Shown in pieces: positions 5,687 through 50,439 of a stretch of DNA of 64,000 nucleotides. The notes beneath the pieces were generated by a model that saw only the letters and a list, made by a program, of their open reading frames with translations, made no database searches and had not been told where the DNA came from. This DNA is from Clostridia bacterium. GTDB taxonomy: Bacteria; Bacillota; Clostridia; Christensenellales; Borkfalkiaceae. How positions within the stretch are numbered: the stretch's first letter is position 1; every line of letters begins with the position of its first letter. Where the stretch lies: the NCBI GenBank assembly GCA_017463325.1, contig JAFTPK010000002.1:124001-188000 (forward strand), written 5' to 3'. The position numbers and the translations under genes are program-made.

Positions 5687-7041
5687 AAATTATCATCGTG
5701 GGTTGTAGCGAGGTAGGGCAAACGCTTGCCGCAAAGCTGAACGACGATGGCAATGAAGTGACCGTTATAGACGTGCAAGCGGAAAAAGTTCGCGCGGTTA
5801 GTAGCCGTTACGACGTTATGGGCGTTGTGGGCAACGGTGCAACGCAGGCTACCTTACAGGAGGCGGGCATTGAAAACGCCGACCTGTTTATCGCTGTTAC
5901 CGACTCGGACGAACTCAATTTGCTCTGTTGTATGATCGCGAAAAAAGAGAGCGACTGTCATGTGATTGCCCGCGTCGTCAACCCCGCGTACAGCGAAGAA
6001 ACGGCGTATTTAAAAGAGCGGCTGGGGCTTGCCATGGTCATTAACCCTGACTTCGCGACGGCAGAGGAGATCGCGCGGGTATTACTTTTCCCGAGCGCGC
6101 TAAAAATCGAACCGTTTGCCAAGGGCAGGGTGGAGCTTGTCAGCTTCCGCTTGCAAAAAGATAACCTTCTCGTAGGGCTTTCCGTGAAGGAGGCTATGAG
6201 TAAGCTGAAAAGCAAGGTGCTGATTTGCACGGTAGAGCGAGGAGAGGAGGCGTATATCCCGAGCGGCGATTTCGTATTTGCGGAAAAGGACGTCGTTTCC
6301 ATTGTCGCGCCCAAGCGCGAGGCGAAAGAATTTTTTACTAAAATTCGCTATAAGGGCCATTCGATCAAGGACGCGATCGTGGCGGGCGGCGGCGCGATTA
6401 CGCACTATTTGTTCGAGATTATGGAGCGTTCGGGAATAGCCTTTAAGGTGATTGAAAAGGACGAGGCACTTTGCGAGGAGCTTGCCACCCGTTTTGATAA
6501 GGTGACGGTGATCAACGGCCACGCAGGGGATAAAAACCTGCTTGTGGAAGAGGGGGTAAGCGAAACGGGCGCGTTTGTTGCGCTTGTCAAAGGGGACGAG
6601 GAAAACATTCTCTTTTCTATGTTCGCCAAGGAGGCGGGCGCGGAAAAGACGGTGACGAAAATCAGCCGTATCGACTACGACAGCGTGCTTTCCAAACTGG
6701 ATTTGGATACCGTCGTTTGCCCGAAAAATATTACGTCCGACATCATTTTGCGCTATGTCCGTGCAACGGGTAACGCTATGGGCAGCAACGTCGAAACCTT
6801 GTACAACATTATTCCCGATAAAGTGGAAGCGGTGGAATTTATCGTCCGCGAGGGTTCGCCTATCGTCGGGAAACCGCTTGCAGAGCTTGCCTTTCAGCGC
6901 AACGTGCTCGTGGCGTCGATCTTACGCGGGAAAACGGTGATCGTGCCCCGCGGTCAGGATACGATCGAGGTGGGCGATTCGGTGGTGCTCGTCAGTATGG
7001 GGCGCAGTTTAAGCGATATTACCGACGCGTTAAAGGAGTAA
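5683..7041 (+). CDS. trkA: Trk potassium uptake regulatory subunit TrkA
   Basis: A 452-residue peripheral protein that gates the TrkH channel in response to nucleotides. It has the duplicated architecture of full-length TrkA: a Rossmann RCK_N at about 1-120 (IIIVGCSEVGQTLA, IDVQAEK), an RCK_C at about 135-215, a second RCK_N from about 226 (IVAGGGAITHYLFE) and a second RCK_C at about 370-450. It overlaps the SGNH gene by ATGA and is followed after 7 nt by trkH. Confidence 0.93.
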   Translation: MKIIIVGCSEVGQTLAAKLNDDGNEVTVIDVQAEKVRAVSSRYDVMGVVGNGATQATLQEAGIENADLFIAVTDSDELNLLCCMIAKKESDCHVIARVVNPAYSEETAYLKERLGLAMVINPDFATAEEIARVLLFPSALKIEPFAKGRVELVSFRLQKDNLLVGLSVKEAMSKLKSKVLICTVERGEEAYIPSGDFVFAEKDVVSIVAPKREAKEFFTKIRYKGHSIKDAIVAGGGAITHYLFEIMERSGIAFKVIEKDEALCEELATRFDKVTVINGHAGDKNLLVEEGVSETGAFVALVKGDEENILFSMFAKEAGAEKTVTKISRIDYDSVLSKLDLDTVVCPKNITSDIILRYVRATGNAMGSNVETLYNIIPDKVEAVEFIVREGSPIVGKPLAELAFQRNVLVASILRGKTVIVPRGQDTIEVGDSVVLVSMGRSLSDITDALKE

Positions 7042-44827: not shown

Positions 44828-45164
44828 GAAAGAACGAGTTGGCGAAATGGCAAAAATCATCAAACCTTTAATGCCGAATCAATGTGGATTTGTGGAAGAA
44901 ATGGGTTGCGTTTTTGGCGACGACATAGATTGTCCCGAATGCGTAATAGCGCAACGGCTCGTGGAAGTCGGATATAAAAAAGAGAGTGAAGTAGCAGGGG
45001 AGATTTTGGGAGAGATACGAAAAGCGGTCTTTGATTATCTGAATGTAAAAAATGAACAACAAGCAGATAACCTTTCTTTAATTGATAGCACATTGACATA
45101 CGATGTTGTAACGAAAAAGATTACGGAGATTGCAAAACGATTGAAATGCGAGGTGAAAGAGTGA
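44820..45164 (+). CDS. Phage protein with a VxxGYxK module, unknown function
   Basis: A 114-residue protein. CPECVIAQRLVEVGYKKESE is a short module that recurs in other small proteins of this prophage (50697, 54393). N-terminal part has three Cys. Overlaps the Dam-like start by GTGA. Confidence 0.65.
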   Translation: MDKKERVGEMAKIIKPLMPNQCGFVEEMGCVFGDDIDCPECVIAQRLVEVGYKKESEVAGEILGEIRKAVFDYLNVKNEQQADNLSLIDSTLTYDVVTKKITEIAKRLKCEVKE

Positions 45165-45913
45165 AATACATTGGGAGCAAGTCGAAAATTGCATCGGAGA
45201 TTGTGCCGATTTTGCAGAACATCATAGACGAAAATAAAATTGAGTTTTACATAGAGCCTTTTGTGGGCGGTTTTAATATCATTGATAAAATCAAATGTGT
45301 TGTGCGCATAGGCGCGGATATTGATAAGCTCGTGTGCAATCTCGTAGTTGAGTGCAGAAGAAATCCTTATTTACTCGATACGCTTAAAACGCCAACGCGT
45401 GAAGAATATTACGACGTTCGGGATAATCCGCATAAATACCAAAGTTGGTACAGGGCGGCAATACTTCTCTTTGCATCGTATAACTCGCGCGTGTACGGCG
45501 GTTGCTATGGAGCGACGGCTAAAACGAAAGACGGAAAAACTCGTGATTATTTTGAAGAAGCGAAGAGAAATTTTCAAAACCAACTTCCCAAATTAACAAA
45601 TATATTCATTCAAAACTGCGATTATAGAAAAATGGTATTGCCAAAGCCTGCAAAAATGTTATTTTATTGCGACCCGCCTTACGCTGAAGGAATTGGCTAC
45701 GGGGGGGGATTCGATACCGAAGAGTTTTGGAATTGGTGCAGAGAGCAAACCAAAGAAGGAAATATAGTTATTGTTAGCGAAAACTCCGCGCCGAAAGATT
45801 TTGCTTGTATTTGGGAAAAGGGCGTTGAAAGTCATTTGAATAATCGAAATAAGACGAGAAAAACGGAAAGACTTTTTATGTGTATGGATTGCACGTATGG
45901 GGTGCAGTCGTGA
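45161..45913 (+). CDS. Dam-type DNA adenine methylase with a G8 tract
   Basis: A 250-residue SAM-dependent methylase. KYIGSKSKIASEIV (motif X), EPFVGGFNII (motif I) and FYCDPPYAEG (catalytic DPPY, motif IV) are in the alpha-group/Dam order. Directly after DPPY, the triplet GYGGGF is coded TAC-GGG-GGG-GGA, giving the G8 tract at 45701-45708; a one-base slip there would remove the C-terminal third. It is in frame here (ON). The GTG start at 45161 has GAGG 6-7 nt ahead and overlaps the previous stop; ATG 45146 has no ribosome site. Confidence 0.87.
   Translation: MKYIGSKSKIASEIVPILQNIIDENKIEFYIEPFVGGFNIIDKIKCVVRIGADIDKLVCNLVVECRRNPYLLDTLKTPTREEYYDVRDNPHKYQSWYRAAILLFASYNSRVYGGCYGATAKTKDGKTRDYFEEAKRNFQNQLPKLTNIFIQNCDYRKMVLPKPAKMLFYCDPPYAEGIGYGGGFDTEEFWNWCREQTKEGNIVIVSENSAPKDFACIWEKGVESHLNNRNKTRKTERLFMCMDCTYGVQS
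45701..45708 (+). repeat. G8 tract in the Dam-type methylase
   Basis: Eight G in TAC-GGG-GGG-GGA, coding YGGG just after DPPY. In frame in this copy. Confidence 0.95.
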
Positions 45914-46116
45914 AATACAAAAAGATTGACGAGTATATAACTTACACCCCGCCCGAAGAACTTGCAATCTGTGAAGATTGCCCGTACCCAACGGCGCAAT
46001 GCGGGGATAGAGGGTGCAGACACTTTCTATCAGCAAAGAAAGCATTGGAAGAGAATCGAAGAAAGGAAAAACAGAACGGTGGAAAAGTACATAAACAAAA
46101 TCATTCGCGCGGATAG
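45910..46116 (+). CDS. Small Cys-rich phage protein
   Basis: A 68-residue protein starting at GTG 45910, which overlaps the methylase stop. It has ICEDCPYPTAQCGDRGCRHF with five Cys and one His, likely metal-binding, and a basic tail. It overlaps the next methylase by 38 nt. Confidence 0.6.
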   Translation: MKYKKIDEYITYTPPEELAICEDCPYPTAQCGDRGCRHFLSAKKALEENRRKEKQNGGKVHKQNHSRG

Positions 46117-46792
46117 CTACGACTTCATAAAAAGCATACCCGATAAGAGTATTGATTGTATCTATACGGATATTCCCTATTTATATGTAAACGGTGGTGT
46201 TGGACATAGTGAGCTGTGTGTGAGAACGGCGAGAAAGAAAAAGGAACTTGAAGATATTTCAAAAGGGATTGATTACTCCATTCTCGAAGAGTTCAAAAGG
46301 GTTCTCAAAAAAGTCAACATTTTCATTTGGTGTAGCAAGATGCAACTGCTCGATATTATGAAATGGGGGGGGGGTTACAATACTGACTTGTTAGTATGGT
46401 GTAAGACGAATCCCACTCCGCAAACGAATAATATTTGGTTGCCCGATTTAGAGTATTGCGTATATATGCGGGAGTTCGGCGTACCCTTAAACGACGGCTA
46501 CGAGCTGAAAAGTAAATGGTATTGCTCCCCGGCGAATAAAAGCGACAAGGATTTATTTGAGCATCCAACAATCAAACCCCTTCAACTTGTGGAACGGCAT
46601 TTGCTACACGCAACGCAACCAAACGATATTGTAGCAGATTTCTTTGTTGGGAGCGGCACGACGGCTGTCGCCTGCAAGGAGATAGGGCGACGGTATATCG
46701 GGGTGGAAATTGAAGAAAAGTGGGTAAAGGTCGCGAACGATAGACTAAACGGAATAGACCAAAACGGACAAATAAGCCTCTTTTTAAGATAA
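46079..46792 (+). CDS. DNA methylase (DPPY-type, beta-group order) with a G10 tract
   Basis: A 237-residue protein. IIRADSYDFIKSIPDKSIDCIYTDIPYLY carries the catalytic motif as DIPY; HPTIKPLQLVERH and ADFFVGSGTTAVACKEIGR with IGVEIEE are the C-terminal SAM motifs, so the order is that of beta-group adenine/N4-cytosine methylases. MKWGGGYN is coded with ten consecutive G (46365-46374), in frame here. The protein ends QISLFLR, with QISLF a beta-clamp-like motif. GTG start with AAAGGAAAAA upstream. Confidence 0.82.
   Translation: MEKYINKIIRADSYDFIKSIPDKSIDCIYTDIPYLYVNGGVGHSELCVRTARKKKELEDISKGIDYSILEEFKRVLKKVNIFIWCSKMQLLDIMKWGGGYNTDLLVWCKTNPTPQTNNIWLPDLEYCVYMREFGVPLNDGYELKSKWYCSPANKSDKDLFEHPTIKPLQLVERHLLHATQPNDIVADFFVGSGTTAVACKEIGRRYIGVEIEEKWVKVANDRLNGIDQNGQISLFLR
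46365..46374 (+). repeat. G10 tract in the beta-group methylase
   Basis: Ten G in TGG-GGG-GGG-GGT, coding WGGG. In frame in this copy. Confidence 0.95.
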
Positions 46793-46812
46793 CATTTCAG
46801 GAGAAAATAGAA

Positions 46813-47187
46813 ATGGATAAAGCAAAGATAAAAGCACAGTTTCTCAAATACAGCAAGGAGCAAATTATAGATGCAATGCTTTCGGAAACAATCTTCAATG
46901 AAGCAAGCCATATTCTGCACCGTTGTTGGCATACGAAGCACGACGAGCTTTACAAGGCTATGTGCAAAGCGGGAGAAGAAGAGAAGGCTGCATTAACTGC
47001 TTTCGTTGAATACCAAAAAGAACTCGCCGAAAAGTATGGCGACGGAGAAAGGTTTAAGTTTTCAAGGCTGTCGTCGCAAGAATCTATAAAGTATGATAAA
47101 CTGTCGGCGGCGTGGGATGAAACGCGTAAACGATACGAAAAGGCAAACAAACAAATCGACACATTTTATAGGGAGTGCAAGTTATGA
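46813..47187 (+). CDS. Helical phage protein, unknown function
   Basis: A 124-residue charged protein, mostly helical, with a C-terminal coil (WDETRKRYEKANKQIDTFYRE). CAGGAGAAAATAGAA precedes the ATG; its stop overlaps the next start by ATGA. No family recognised; it has no G tract although it lies in the modification block. Confidence 0.65.
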   Translation: MDKAKIKAQFLKYSKEQIIDAMLSETIFNEASHILHRCWHTKHDELYKAMCKAGEEEKAALTAFVEYQKELAEKYGDGERFKFSRLSSQESIKYDKLSAAWDETRKRYEKANKQIDTFYRECKL

Positions 47188-47468
47188 AACCTTCGTTAAA
47201 CAGAACGGTTTATTGCATATACGAAGATTGCATACTCACGGAAGAAGTTTACGCGCTCGGTGCGGACAGCTTTATTGTTGCGAGCTTCGGGAGTATGACA
47301 AATTCCGATAGTTGGGAATATTTCTTTGAAGAGTACAATGAAACTTGGTTCACAAGCCTTGCAAGAGCAAAGAAAAAATTGAAGGCGAAATACCATAGAG
47401 AACACGAAAAATCTTGTACTTTTGTTGAGATTGAGAGTGGATATTACGAGGCTATACCTGAAAAATGA
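47184..47468 (+). CDS. Small phage protein, unknown function
   Basis: A 94-residue protein, beta-rich at first (NRTVYCIYEDCILTEEVYAL) then basic (ARAKKKLKAKYHREHEK). Start at ATG 47184 with GGGAG 8 nt ahead; a GTG at 47175 in frame is rejected. It overlaps the PAPS-reductase-family gene by ATGA. Confidence 0.65.
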   Translation: MKPSLNRTVYCIYEDCILTEEVYALGADSFIVASFGSMTNSDSWEYFFEEYNETWFTSLARAKKKLKAKYHREHEKSCTFVEIESGYYEAIPEK

Positions 47469-47803
47469 CAAATTATCGCCTTCTTAACAAATACATAACC
47501 GAAGAAATAGACCCAAACGCGGTTTACGTTCTCTCGCTTTCATACGGAAAAGATAGTCTTGCTTGCCTTGGGGCGATTGAAAAACTTGGACTTCCGCTCC
47601 ACAGAATCGTACACGCAGAGGTGTGGGCTACGGACACAATCCCCGCCGACTTGCCGCCTATGGTGGATTTTAAGGCAAAGGCAGATGAAATTATAGAACG
47701 GCGTTGGGGAATAAAAGTCGAGCATATTTGCGCAACGAAGAAGATTTGCGGGGGGGGGTCAACAAAAACTCTCTTACGAACAGATGTTCTACAATGTGCT
47801 TGA
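47465..47803 (+). CDS. PAPS-reductase/ATP-PPase-family protein, N-terminal part cut off by a G9 tract
   Basis: YVLSLSYGKDSLACLGAIE contains the SxGKDS PP-loop of the adenine-nucleotide alpha-hydrolase superfamily, and HAEVWATDTIPADLPPMV is typical of phage PAPS-reductase-like proteins. At 47750-47758 a tract of nine G follows the TGC codon. With nine G the frame runs into TGA at 47801. With eight G it would read CGGGQQKLSYEQMFYNV and continue to 48605 (379 residues). So the gene is out of frame in this copy. The native reaction is unknown. Confidence 0.85.
   Translation: MTNYRLLNKYITEEIDPNAVYVLSLSYGKDSLACLGAIEKLGLPLHRIVHAEVWATDTIPADLPPMVDFKAKADEIIERRWGIKVEHICATKKICGGGSTKTLLRTDVLQCA
47750..47758 (+). 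repeat. G9 tract that interrupts the PAPS-reductase-family gene
   Basis: Nine G after TGC. Eight would keep the long frame; nine leads to a stop at 47801-47803. Confidence 0.95.
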
Positions 47804-48605
47804 AAGTGGACAGTTTGCAGGAACAATCAAAGGATTCCCACTTACAATCGGAAGTTGGTGCAAAAAGCTCAAATACGAAAACGGAGCGGTTGACATACGA
47901 AGATATATTCTATCGAGTTGTGCAATCGCGGGGGGGGGCAAGGATTTACGGCTTCCCGATGCTCGGCGGGCAATGGTGCAACTCGGCTCTCAAAATGCAA
48001 GCCTTCCGACAGACTCAATCACGGGCTTTGCGACGAAATGGAGTCAATACTGCACGGGGGAACTCAAACGAACCGTATTACGGGCTTTCCCATTTCAGTC
48101 AACCGGGGGAATTGGTGTACCCAACTCAAACAAAGGGTTTTCCAAAAGCCCGAACACGACGGGCGGTATAAATGTCGTGCAGTATCTTGGGATTGCGGCA
48201 GACGAGCCTTTAAGAATAGAAAGACACTCCAAACGAAAGGATATTATACTTCCGCTTGCGGAAATCGGGTGGGATGAAGATTACTGTGGACTGTGGGCAA
48301 AATACAATGATTTGCTGTCGCCGACATATACGACAGCAACAAGGGGCGGCTGTTGGTTCTGCCACAACCAAGGGGTTGAGCAATTAAGGTTATTGCGAAA
48401 GAATTACCCTGACCTTTGGGAACTCTTGTTAAAGTGGGACAAGGACAGTCCGACAACGTTTAAGCCCGACGGTCATACGGTGCGGGATTTCGACAAGAGA
48501 TTCGAGATGGAAGATAAAGGAATTATCAGCCCAAAAGACACGTTTCGGTGGAAATACCTTACAGAACCACCGCAAATGCGGCAAATGTCCATTTTCGACA
48601 TTTAG
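47784..48605 (+). CDS. PAPS-reductase-family protein, C-terminal part with tandem modules in shifted frames
   Basis: The C-terminal ~150 residues (VVQYLGIAADEPLRIERH, TTATRGGCWFCHNQGVEQLR, LLLKWDKDSPTTFKPDGH, ending QMSIFDI) are the normal end of the protein begun at 47465. Between about 47770 and 48130 the DNA encodes four variants of a module GFP...WC...LK: in this frame (GFPLTIGSWCKKLK; GFATKWSQYCTGELK), in frame +1 (47704-48171, YGFPMLGGQWCNSALK) and in frame +2 (47918-48277, GFPISVNRGNWCTQLK). A second G9 tract (47930-47938) lies in the module region. The ATG at 47784 is only the first in this frame, not a convincing start. Confidence 0.75.
   Translation: MFYNVLESGQFAGTIKGFPLTIGSWCKKLKYENGAVDIRRYILSSCAIAGGGKDLRLPDARRAMVQLGSQNASLPTDSITGFATKWSQYCTGELKRTVLRAFPFQSTGGIGVPNSNKGFSKSPNTTGGINVVQYLGIAADEPLRIERHSKRKDIILPLAEIGWDEDYCGLWAKYNDLLSPTYTTATRGGCWFCHNQGVEQLRLLRKNYPDLWELLLKWDKDSPTTFKPDGHTVRDFDKRFEMEDKGIISPKDTFRWKYLTEPPQMRQMSIFDI
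47930..47938 (+). repeat. G9 tract in the module region of the PAPS-reductase-family gene
   Basis: Nine G. In frame for the second module (QSRGGARIYGFP) if read in the 47704 frame; in the 47784 frame it codes AGGGKD. Confidence 0.95.
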
Positions 48606-48617
48606 GAGAAGAATAAA

Positions 48618-49724
48618 ATGTTTCAAATGAGCTTATTTGACGGCAGTCAGCCGTTCAAAATAGATAAACCTATACGCCTAATAGAGCTTTTTGCGGGGTA
48701 CGGGAGTCAAGCACTTTCCCTTAAATATCTCGGCGTACCCTTTGAACACCACGTTATAAGCGAATGGGCGGTAAAATCCATTCAAGCGTATAAGGATATG
48801 CACTTTGTAGGCGACTCAACGGATTACTCTATGGGTATGACCGACGGGGAGCTTGTGGATTTTCTCGACGGGAGAATATCAGCAGACTACAACAAGCCTA
48901 TGACCCGCAAGCAAATAGAGAAACATAACGGCGGCGAAAAATGGCGTAGAGCGGTTTACAACAATATGAAAGCAACGAGAAATCTTGGCTCTATAACAAT
49001 GGCAAGGGGGGGGGATTTACGGGTTGAAGAAACCGACAAATACTGCTACATACTCACCTACTCATTCCCCTGTCAAGACCTTTCTTCGGCGGGAAAGGGC
49101 GCGGGGATGGAGAAAGGGAGTGGAACGCGTAGTGGATTGCTGTGGGAAGTGGAGCGATTGCTGAAGGAATGCAACGAACTTCCGCAGGTTCTTCTAATGG
49201 AGAATGTTCCTGATGTTACGAGCAAGAAAAATATGCCGCATTTCGCACAATGGATAGCTTTTCTCGACGAGCTTGGGTACAAAACGAAATGGGCGAATTT
49301 GAATGCAAAGGAATTTGGCATTCCGCAAAACCGAGAGAGATGCTTTGCGGTTTCTATCCTTGGGGATTACTACTACAATCACCCCACGGGGTTTCCCCTT
49401 AAAAAAAGACTGCGCGACGTCCTTCAAAAAAATGTGGACGAAAGCTATTATCTAAAAGAAGAAACAATACAAGCGTTAAACCTTCATAAAGAACGCCACG
49501 ATGCCAAGGGTAATGGATTCGGTTGGCAACCTACGACGGGGGGGGGTACGCAAAGACTATCAAGACTGAAAGCGGATACAGACCAAGTTCAAACTTTGTT
49601 ATTGAGCAACCAAGGAAAAACGGTAAAGAAATTCGTGGATGTCGCGGGAACGGTGATGGCGCGAGATTGGAAGGGATTTGGCAATCAAGCGATGACGGCG
49701 GTGATGGAAACAAAAAAACAATAG
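48618..49724 (+). CDS. DNA cytosine-5 methyltransferase, catalytic part, phase-variable
   Basis: A 368-residue product. ELFAGYGSQALSL (motif I), SFPCQDLSSAGK with the catalytic Cys (motif IV), LLMENVPDV (motif VI) and IPQNRERCF (motif VIII) are all present. Motifs IX-X are not; they are found downstream in another frame (49831-50439). Two G9 tracts lie in it: 49006-49014 (MARGGD, in frame) and 49538-49546, where ten G would lead into the natural continuation YAKTIKTESGYRPSSNF. With nine G the protein ends at 49724 after GTVMARDWKGFGNQAM. It starts MFQMSLFDG, with QMSLF a beta-clamp-like motif. AGGAGAAGAATAAA precedes the ATG. Confidence 0.85.
   Translation: MFQMSLFDGSQPFKIDKPIRLIELFAGYGSQALSLKYLGVPFEHHVISEWAVKSIQAYKDMHFVGDSTDYSMGMTDGELVDFLDGRISADYNKPMTRKQIEKHNGGEKWRRAVYNNMKATRNLGSITMARGGDLRVEETDKYCYILTYSFPCQDLSSAGKGAGMEKGSGTRSGLLWEVERLLKECNELPQVLLMENVPDVTSKKNMPHFAQWIAFLDELGYKTKWANLNAKEFGIPQNRERCFAVSILGDYYYNHPTGFPLKKRLRDVLQKNVDESYYLKEETIQALNLHKERHDAKGNGFGWQPTTGGGTQRLSRLKADTDQVQTLLLSNQGKTVKKFVDVAGTVMARDWKGFGNQAMTAVMETKKQ
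49006..49014 (+). repeat. G9 tract in the catalytic part of the C5 methyltransferase
   Basis: Nine G in AGG-GGG-GGG-GAT, coding RGGD ahead of the PCQ motif. In frame. Confidence 0.95.
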
Positions 49725-49843
49725 TTATGAGCCGTCCGCACGGCTATAATCGCGGCGGGATAGAAGAAACGGATATTTATCCGACGGTGCGAAAATCGTC
49801 AACTATGGGCGGAAATAATGGAGTGGTGGAATGGAAGAAATAA
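49523..49843 (+). other. Frame-displaced middle segment of the cytosine methyltransferase
   Basis: In the +2 frame relative to the catalytic part, this stretch encodes YAKTIKTESGYRPSSNF and TIVMSRPHGYNRGGIEETD, both of the type found in target-recognition regions of phage C5 methylases. It lacks its own ribosome site (it opens at TTG). It would be joined to the catalytic part by one extra G in the tract at 49538-49546, or entered near an A7 run at 49712-49718 by one extra A. Confidence 0.7.
49538..49546 (+). repeat. G9 tract at the start of the recognition region of the C5 methyltransferase
   Basis: Nine G; ten would direct translation into the 49523-49843 frame. Confidence 0.95.
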
Positions 49844-50439
49844 CAAGGTGTAAGCAGGTGGCAACGCTCACCGGTGGAAAATGGGATAGGACGATAGAAG
49901 CAAGTAGGCGTGTTTATTCTATCGAACATTTAGCCCCTACCGTAACTTGCGCGGGGGGGGGGAATCAAGAAGTGAAGATTTTAGAGCCTATGATAGTTGA
50001 TGATATCTATAAGGGCAGAGAGCCGAGGGTAACGGATAACAGCCCAACGATTAGAAGTAAGCGCGACGGGTTGAAAGTTTTAGAGCCTATCATCTACGAC
50101 GGATTTAATCAACAGGTACGCGCCGACCAAAGTTGTGTTGGTGCGCTCACAAGGAATTGCGGGGCTGACCTTAAACGGAACGGTCAAGGTGTGGTCGAAC
50201 CGCAAGAAACGGGCGTTCGAGTGCGCAAACTCACGGAAAAGGAGTGCTTTCGACTTCAAGCGGTAAAAGATGAAGATTACGAAAGAGTGCGCAAAAATCA
50301 ATCGAAATCGAGTAGCTATCATTTGGCAGGCGACAGTATTTGCACGGTTTGTCTTATGGCTATTTTCGGCGGGATGACGGGCGTAGATTGGAGAAAAAAG
50401 ATTGACGAGTTGGTAGAGGGGCTGAAAGACAATGAGTAG
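49831..50439 (+). CDS. C-terminal part of the cytosine methyltransferase (modules plus motifs IX-X)
   Basis: A 202-residue frame. Module-like repeats come first: APTVTCAGGGNQEVKILEP, then DIYKGREPRVTDNSPTIRS ... KVLEP, then YDGFNQQVRADQSCVGALT ... VVEP. The end VRKLTEKECFRLQAV and HLAGDSICTVCLMAIF are motifs IX and X. A G10 tract at 49953-49962 encodes the AGGG. The ATG at 49831 has only GGAG-like GGAGTGG ahead, so it may be a separate subunit (as in two-chain C5 methylases) or simply the displaced 3' end of the gene at 48618. Confidence 0.8.
   Translation: MEEITRCKQVATLTGGKWDRTIEASRRVYSIEHLAPTVTCAGGGNQEVKILEPMIVDDIYKGREPRVTDNSPTIRSKRDGLKVLEPIIYDGFNQQVRADQSCVGALTRNCGADLKRNGQGVVEPQETGVRVRKLTEKECFRLQAVKDEDYERVRKNQSKSSSYHLAGDSICTVCLMAIFGGMTGVDWRKKIDELVEGLKDNE
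49953..49962 (+). repeat. G10 tract in the C-terminal part of the C5 methyltransferase
   Basis: Ten G in GCG-GGG-GGG-GGG-AAT, coding AGGGN. In frame within the 49831 frame. Confidence 0.95.

Follow-up and report, generated by a model that had tools for sequence, protein, structure and literature searches.

In C-terminal phase variation, as described for Helicobacter canadensis (PMC2823697) and Neisseria gonorrhoeae (PMC5320596), a homopolymer at the 3' end of a coding sequence (CDS) changes only the C-terminus of the protein, and the altered C-termini are mostly between a few and some dozens of residues long. Here we describe a prophage DNA-modification cassette of a Clostridia gut bacterium (GenBank assembly GCA_017463325.1, contig JAFTPK010000002.1, positions 124,001 to 188,000; this 64,000-nucleotide stretch is referred to as the window), in which long G tracts lie in genes of the Dam, N6/N4, PAPS-reductase/SspD-like and C5 types. 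The SspD-like gene resembles C-terminal phase variation in that homopolymer length within the CDS sets which of three reading frames supplies the downstream protein. However, its tract lies inside the gene, homologous modules form the alternatives, and a proposed frameshift signal would give all products the same C-terminal domain. We consider it likely, judging from the sequences compared below, that in this gene slippage picks the frame, and hence the module, and that a programmed ribosomal frameshift then restores the common frame.

Two other groups of phase-variable modification genes invite comparison. Phasevarion mod genes and methyltransferases switched ON and OFF by simple sequence repeats (SSRs) share with the cassette an SSR in a DNA methyltransferase, as in its N6/N4 gene at 46365; the classic cases are host genes with binary switching, whereas here several prophage genes are concerned at once and the SspD-like and C5 genes have more than one open state. 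In NgoAV, poly-G length in hsdS alters sequence specificity, according to a passage of PMC5320596 that cites Adamczyk-Poplawska 2011. The likeness is that of a poly-G length altering the specificity of a DNA-modification protein, as it may do in the cassette, but NgoAV is without the stacked frame-specific modules and the pseudoknot of the SspD-like gene. The NgoAV protein is reportedly the Type I S subunit of a bacterial host, in truncated or full-length form.

Programmed ribosomal frameshifting with an H-type pseudoknot is reviewed in PMC5009743, and the term phase variation is absent from the part of that review searched. The frame junction of the SspD-like gene, as recognised from sequence alone, has the corresponding slippery run, spacer of ~4-6 nt and covarying pseudoknot. 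Known cases of frameshifting generally lead from one incoming frame to two products, whereas in the SspD-like gene a single frame would be reached from several incoming ones. The gene fits neither binary nor C-terminal phase variation, and no known class with stacked modules and a frame-return signal was found; a literature search of open-access papers likewise returned no description of this combination, an absence that is no proof. The claim of novelty concerns the SspD-like gene only and depends on the proposed ribosomal step.

Long G tracts and their length variation

An exact scan of the window located G8 at 45701-45708, G10 at 46365-46374, G9 at 47750-47758, 47930-47938, 49006-49014 and 49538-49546, and G10 at 49953-49962. 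These seven runs of at least 8 G, packed into 4.3 kb, agree exactly in position and length with the original prediction, as does the maximum of 6 for G or C runs elsewhere in the window with its estimate of about six. Under an order-1 Markov model, 0.83 G runs of at least 8 and 0.21 of at least 9 are expected by chance per 64 kb. Across the 1.66-Mb assembly, G runs of at least 9 occur at seven places only, six of them in the cassette, and on the reverse strand no G run is listed, even at length 8. The remaining one (L006:10009-10017, or G000:C24:222409-222417) lies on the same contig, without a long open frame around it. As GGG accounts for 28% of Gly codons in open reading frames (ORFs) of at least 180 aa, use of this codon is by itself not unusual; the run length is. 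The run scan and the Markov expectation rule out that the tracts arose by chance or from codon bias; they are tracts within CDSs at lengths far beyond chance, as in SSR phase variation.

The surroundings of the cassette are those of a prophage, with integrase, RecE, RecT, replication initiation and portal proteins (PHROG). The earlier assignment of every tract to a modification-type gene is borne out for the gene types, but not every tract lies in an intact ORF, because the PAPS-type gene as assembled has a frameshift at 47750 and the C5 gene is distributed over different frames. Similarly, the Gly runs were said to use GGG codons only, which is correct in the frame chosen, but the other frames also read the same runs.

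The closest viral contig, L001, is ~96% identical in the region of the SspD-like gene, and its tract lengths differ from those of the window at 46365 (G10 in the window, G12 in L001), 47930 (G9, G8) and 49538 (G9, G8), the last being G10 in L171. The strongest evidence of length variation, as far as sequences can tell, comes from near-identical contigs of relatives with indels in the repeats only. L032 and L036 align over 9,232 bp with 0 mismatches and a lone 4-nt (two-unit) gap in (AG)n, while a single AG unit separates L023 from L024 (6,345 bp, 0 mismatches) and L110 from L111, two contigs of one metagenome-assembled genome (6,694 bp, 0 mismatches). L055 and L056 show two poly-G indels in 7,531 bp without mismatch, and the indels in L033/L034 and L015/L017/L019 fall at G runs only. 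Length polymorphism that shifts the frame between near-identical sequences was found in relatives, including the close relatives of the cassette itself. In the wider locus set the tracts occur mostly in DNA-modification genes, and a few lie elsewhere or in sequence without an assignment.

The varying repeat lengths of close relatives and near-identical contigs strongly support slippage-driven phase variation of several genes in a prophage modification cassette, as originally predicted; the proposed comparison with related prophages gave differing lengths at the three positions named above. Homologs without a tract had been put forward as grounds for refutation. Such homologs exist in a compact, single-frame form, but dozens of others keep the tract or (AG)n. 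The reading as a set of on/off switches is right as to phase variation but incomplete, as the SspD-like gene, and less fully the C5 gene, would choose alternative segments.

Modules in alternative frames of the SspD-like gene

A compact homolog (L047) matches SspD in the DNA phosphorothioation model of PADLOC (E = 2.9e-10), and its predicted structure, with a predicted local distance difference test score (pLDDT) of 88.9, has PAPS/APS reductases as best matches (Z = 10.9). The likeness to SspD/DndC PP-loop ATPases and PAPS reductases is one of sequence and fold of the compact homolog, and the gene is assigned from this PP-loop homology. For the long form, Foldseek gave weak PP-loop matches only (E = 2e-3), and a PDB sequence search (query A4) gave no match.

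The C-terminal domain is common to 80 viral loci and 80 genome loci (mostly Clostridia). In compact homologs the N-terminus, one module (FY...GFP..G.WC..LK) and the C-terminus are all in one frame. Extended homologs carry poly-G or (AG)n between the N-terminus and the first module, often with another repeat inside the second module, and contain 2-4 homologous modules, which occupy frames 0, +1 and +2 when that of the C-terminal domain is taken as 0; poly-G and (AG)n stand at equivalent places across relatives. In the window copy as assembled, the frame is shifted at 47750 and that of the N-terminus meets a stop at 47803. Counting nucleotides, one finds that 8 or 11 G in tract 1 would lead into module 1, and 7 or 10 G into the frame of module 2, whereupon tract 2 would select among three alternative second halves in three frames. 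The L001 gene enters module 1 and continues in the second half of module 2, from where it would reach the C-terminal domain only via a -1 shift.

A regular expression for the module matched 70 times in frame +1 and 45 times in +2, although position counts derived from it are biased since it picks conserved residues. An excess of third-codon-position substitutions was found in each module's own frame (p = 3e-5, 1e-3 and 9e-5) by a test that uses overlapping pairs but is less biased than the regular expression. Between the first repeat and the U-run described below, 37 loci together contain 8 stops in frame 0, 2 in +1 and 72 in +2, where 150.5 are expected for each; the loci with +2 stops are mainly two-module loci. 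Simple pseudogene decay is ruled out by the stop counts and the coding selection. The frame of the N-terminus relative to the C-terminus is spread 10/14/14 over the three possibilities, which is what one would expect of assemblies that capture switch states at random.

The openness of frames 0 and +1, both nearly stop-free in most of the 37 loci, makes it unlikely that the gene is a plain ON/OFF switch with one working frame, in which the other frames would be remnants of tandem module duplication and the pseudoknot would serve another role. Coding selection in the +1 and +2 modules argues against such a switch as well, as does the near absence of the U-run and pseudoknot from compact homologs. 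On the other hand, ON/OFF switching by SSRs is common, the N6/N4 gene acts in this way, and in L062/L064 a one-module gene with G8 and without pseudoknot occurs, which in L062 appears to be a one-module ON/OFF gene. The pattern of C-terminal phase variation, a tract near the 3' end with a variable C-terminus, was not found either: the tract is internal, and the C-terminal domain is shared and conserved.

Convergence site and proposed pseudoknot

In nearly all loci a U-run lies 45, 48 or 51 nt 5' of the C-terminal reference codon, in register with it, and this run can encode Phe in each of the three frames in 35 of 37 loci. Where the run consists of exactly four U, the next nucleotide is almost always C, so that frame +2 reads UUC; longer runs are freer in this respect. 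A stem follows ~4-6 nt downstream, and its loop pairs with the sequence just after the stem. In the window, the first stem (S1) pairs GCCCG (48148-48152) with CGGGC (48160-48164), and the second (S2) pairs the loop CACGA with TCGTG just downstream.

The pseudoknot claim rests on covariation in an alignment of 30 sequences, in which 82% of the cells are paired, compared with 35-45% when slid, and the covariation score is 0.329 vs 0.151. Double-changed cells number 42 vs 13.9 ± 3.4 in shuffles that do not correct for relatedness (0/500). The pseudoknot is present in 37 of 45 repeat/extended homologs, 1 of 61 compact homologs and 2% of dinucleotide shuffles, and the corresponding counts for the U-run are 36 of 45 and 0 of 61. 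It was also found in genome loci from a later scan that were not used for its definition (L092, L093, L094, L108, L114, L128, L129, L130). The region matches no known RNA family in Rfam. In combination, the junction has a conserved slippery run in register with the new frame and a covariation-backed structure downstream, as frameshift elements do.

Among the exceptions without the pseudoknot are L044, L117 and phage nd4 (L182), whose two modules share a frame and need no frame return. In L091 and L044 an (AG)/(GA) repeat stands in its place, and that of L091, (AG)7 near 5972, suggests an alternative way of rejoining the frames.

The junction could also be read in terms of translational coupling, whereby the C-terminal domain would be made as its own polypeptide with a start near the pseudoknot. 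Each module frame would then be free to terminate at this point, and the enzyme would consist of two subunits. The 3' strand of S1, GGNGC, is Shine-Dalgarno-like in some loci, an in-frame GTG occurs in most, and the C5 gene looks coupled, since a stop overlaps the start of its C-terminal ORF (49831-49843). Still, 8 of the 37 loci have no in-frame ATG, GTG or TTG from -39 to +26, and ATG is found in none; stops past the U-run occur at no fixed place, the conserved register of the U-run is left unexplained, and the compact homologs are fused. Coupling is therefore regarded as quite improbable, and re-initiation at the C-terminal domain is ruled out because the start codons are not conserved. Homopolymers are error-prone, but that sequencing or assembly errors in them merely broke normal genes is hardly credible and was rejected, as (AG)n takes the place of poly-G at the same sites in other assemblies, many independent assemblies agree, the frames are coding, and errors cannot create modules in different frames together with a covarying RNA.

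Proposed mechanism

In the preferred reading, where slippage selects the module and a ribosomal frameshift restores the common frame, replication slippage would alter repeat length within coding sequences, as suggested by the natural length variants. The N6/N4 methyltransferase would be switched on and off in this way. In the SspD-like gene, translation would proceed from the PP-loop N-terminus across the tract and enter one of the homologous modules, of which several exist in different frames, and every module frame would then run into UUUUC, where tRNA-Phe fits any frame, followed by the pseudoknot. Promoted by the pseudoknot, ribosomes in frame +1 would slip by -1, and those in frame +2 (where open) by -2, into the C-terminal frame, while those in frame 0 would read on. 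The product would have constant N- and C-terminal halves and a varied middle module, and the varied module would probably confer a different target or partner specificity. From the tracts, their length variants, the multi-frame modules with coding selection, the U-run register and the covarying pseudoknot, we infer the frameshift and its efficiency, the -2 step and the change of specificity; evasion of restriction by the cassette is plausible. We lean towards the full form of this model, i.e. a repeat-length frame selector joined to an RNA frame funnel (UUUUC and pseudoknot) at which tRNA-Phe slips 0, -1 or -2 to the shared C-terminal domain, so that the phage changes the specificity of a modification enzyme without DNA rearrangement.

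Several points weigh against this mechanism, in addition to the biases noted above for the regular expression, the overlapping pairs and the shuffles. The window gene as assembled sits in the OFF state. The state 0 product would carry an off-frame linker of ~50-100 aa, whose structure is predicted at low confidence (pLDDT <50 for residues 154-172 and 194-203 of L032). When the window segment 48125-48190 is folded without pseudoknots, a competing hairpin is favoured and the stability is unremarkable (z = -1.07), and S2 is weaker in a few rows of the alignment (L055, L069, L110, L133). Moreover, UUUUC is no canonical X_XXY_YYZ heptamer, and ribosomes in frame +2 would require a shift of -2 (or +1), an event that is rarer.

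If the mechanism is correct, DNA-level phase variation and ribosomal recoding, usually separate, would be joined in one device yielding several protein variants instead of on/off, and phages would carry multi-locus contingency genes for DNA modification. It would also account for the possible splitting of such genes and their annotation as hypothetical (PHROG_28782 corresponds to the C-terminal part only), and it makes testable whether ribosomes in bacteria can shift from several incoming frames into a single one.

Three side observations concern the same gene. The catalogued family PHROG_28782 matches its C-terminal domain only, as expected if gene callers split the gene at the frame change. 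In the C-terminal domain of phage nd4 (L182, OR777945.1), TGA replaces the Trp of the relatives' GCWFCHNQ (RDGC*FCHNQ) and the annotated gene is split, which is either a nonsense mutation or a recoding of TGA. The L095 contig starts with ~51 C exactly at the repeat position of its relatives, possibly an assembly end effect.

Table 1. Features of the modification cassette, in window positions
Feature	Position	Strand	Match or remark
PAPS-reductase/SspD-like PP-loop gene	47465-48605	+	PHROG_424
N-terminal PP-loop part (SYGKDS), frame +2 relative to C-terminal domain	47465..47758	+	PHROG_424
Putative switch tract 1, G9	47750..47758	+	leads to frame 2 and early stop as assembled
Module 1 (QQKLSYEQMFYNV..GFPLTIGSWCKKLK), frame 0	47760..47873	+	
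Module 2 (ERLTYEDIFYRV..YGFPMLGGQWCNSALK), frame +1, split by tract 2	47884..47994	+	
Putative switch tract 2, G9 (G8 in L001), within module 2	47930..47938	+	
Alternative half-module (ITGFATKWSQYCTGELK), frame 0	48018..48068	+	
Half-module 3 (NRITGFPISVNRGNWCTQLKQRVF), frame +2, last residue Phe on U-run	48071..48142	+	
UUUUC convergence and proposed slippery site, Phe in all three frames	48138..48142	+	
Proposed H-type pseudoknot	48148..48186	+	covariation
Shared C-terminal domain (NVVQYLGIAADEP..GGCWFCHNQ..), frame 0	48171..48605	+	PHROG_28782/424
C5-cytosine methyltransferase, N-terminal part and tail A (..VAGTVMARDWKGFGNQAM..), frame 0	48618..49724	+	Pfam DNA_methylase 3e-42
Putative C5 switch tract, G9	49538..49546	+	length variants L001, L171
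C5 tail B, frame 2 (GYAKTIKTESGYRPSSNFVIE..IYPTVRKSSTMGGNNGVVEWKK*)	49544..49843	+	stop overlaps first codons of C-terminal ORF
C5 C-terminal ORF (motif IX/X region), separate frame, G10 at 49953	49831..50439	+	weak match 7e-4
Dam/D12-type adenine methyltransferase	45146..45913	+	Pfam MethyltransfD12 3e-13; alignment with L001
N6/N4 (beta-type) DNA methyltransferase, G10 at 46365-46374 (MKWGGGYNTD)	45962..46792	+	Pfam N6_N4_Mtase 8e-30

The methyltransferase genes

The catalytic domain of the C5 gene is clear from its Pfam match (Table 1), and its N-terminal part with tail A holds the G9 tracts at 49006 and 49538. The latter would offer a three-way choice, in which G9 leads to tail A, G10 (the length in L171) to tail B and G8 (L001) to an early stop. 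The tract may be an alternative-tail variant, with a selection of coding segments that appears less complete than in the SspD-like gene. A frame-return pseudoknot was not evident by eye, no systematic search having been made, and tblastn of tail B against phages gave no match.

The run at 45701 in the Dam-type gene is probably neither variable nor a working switch, because L001 has the interrupted sequence GGGGAGGG there. Two small genes lie amid the modification genes (46813-47187 and 47175-47468), for which no match was obtained in Pfam or PHROG.

The N6/N4 gene is in frame in the window (G10) and out of frame in L001 (G12), and in L172/L173 the tract is kept at 78% identity, as G9 and in frame. 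The tract at 46365 appears to be an ordinary ON/OFF switch of the known kind. The N6/N4 methylases of L179, L180 and L181 contain G9-G13 runs whose lengths differ among the three, and adjoining them in two of these loci a G9 run lies in an SSB-like gene (L179:6023, L180:6021).

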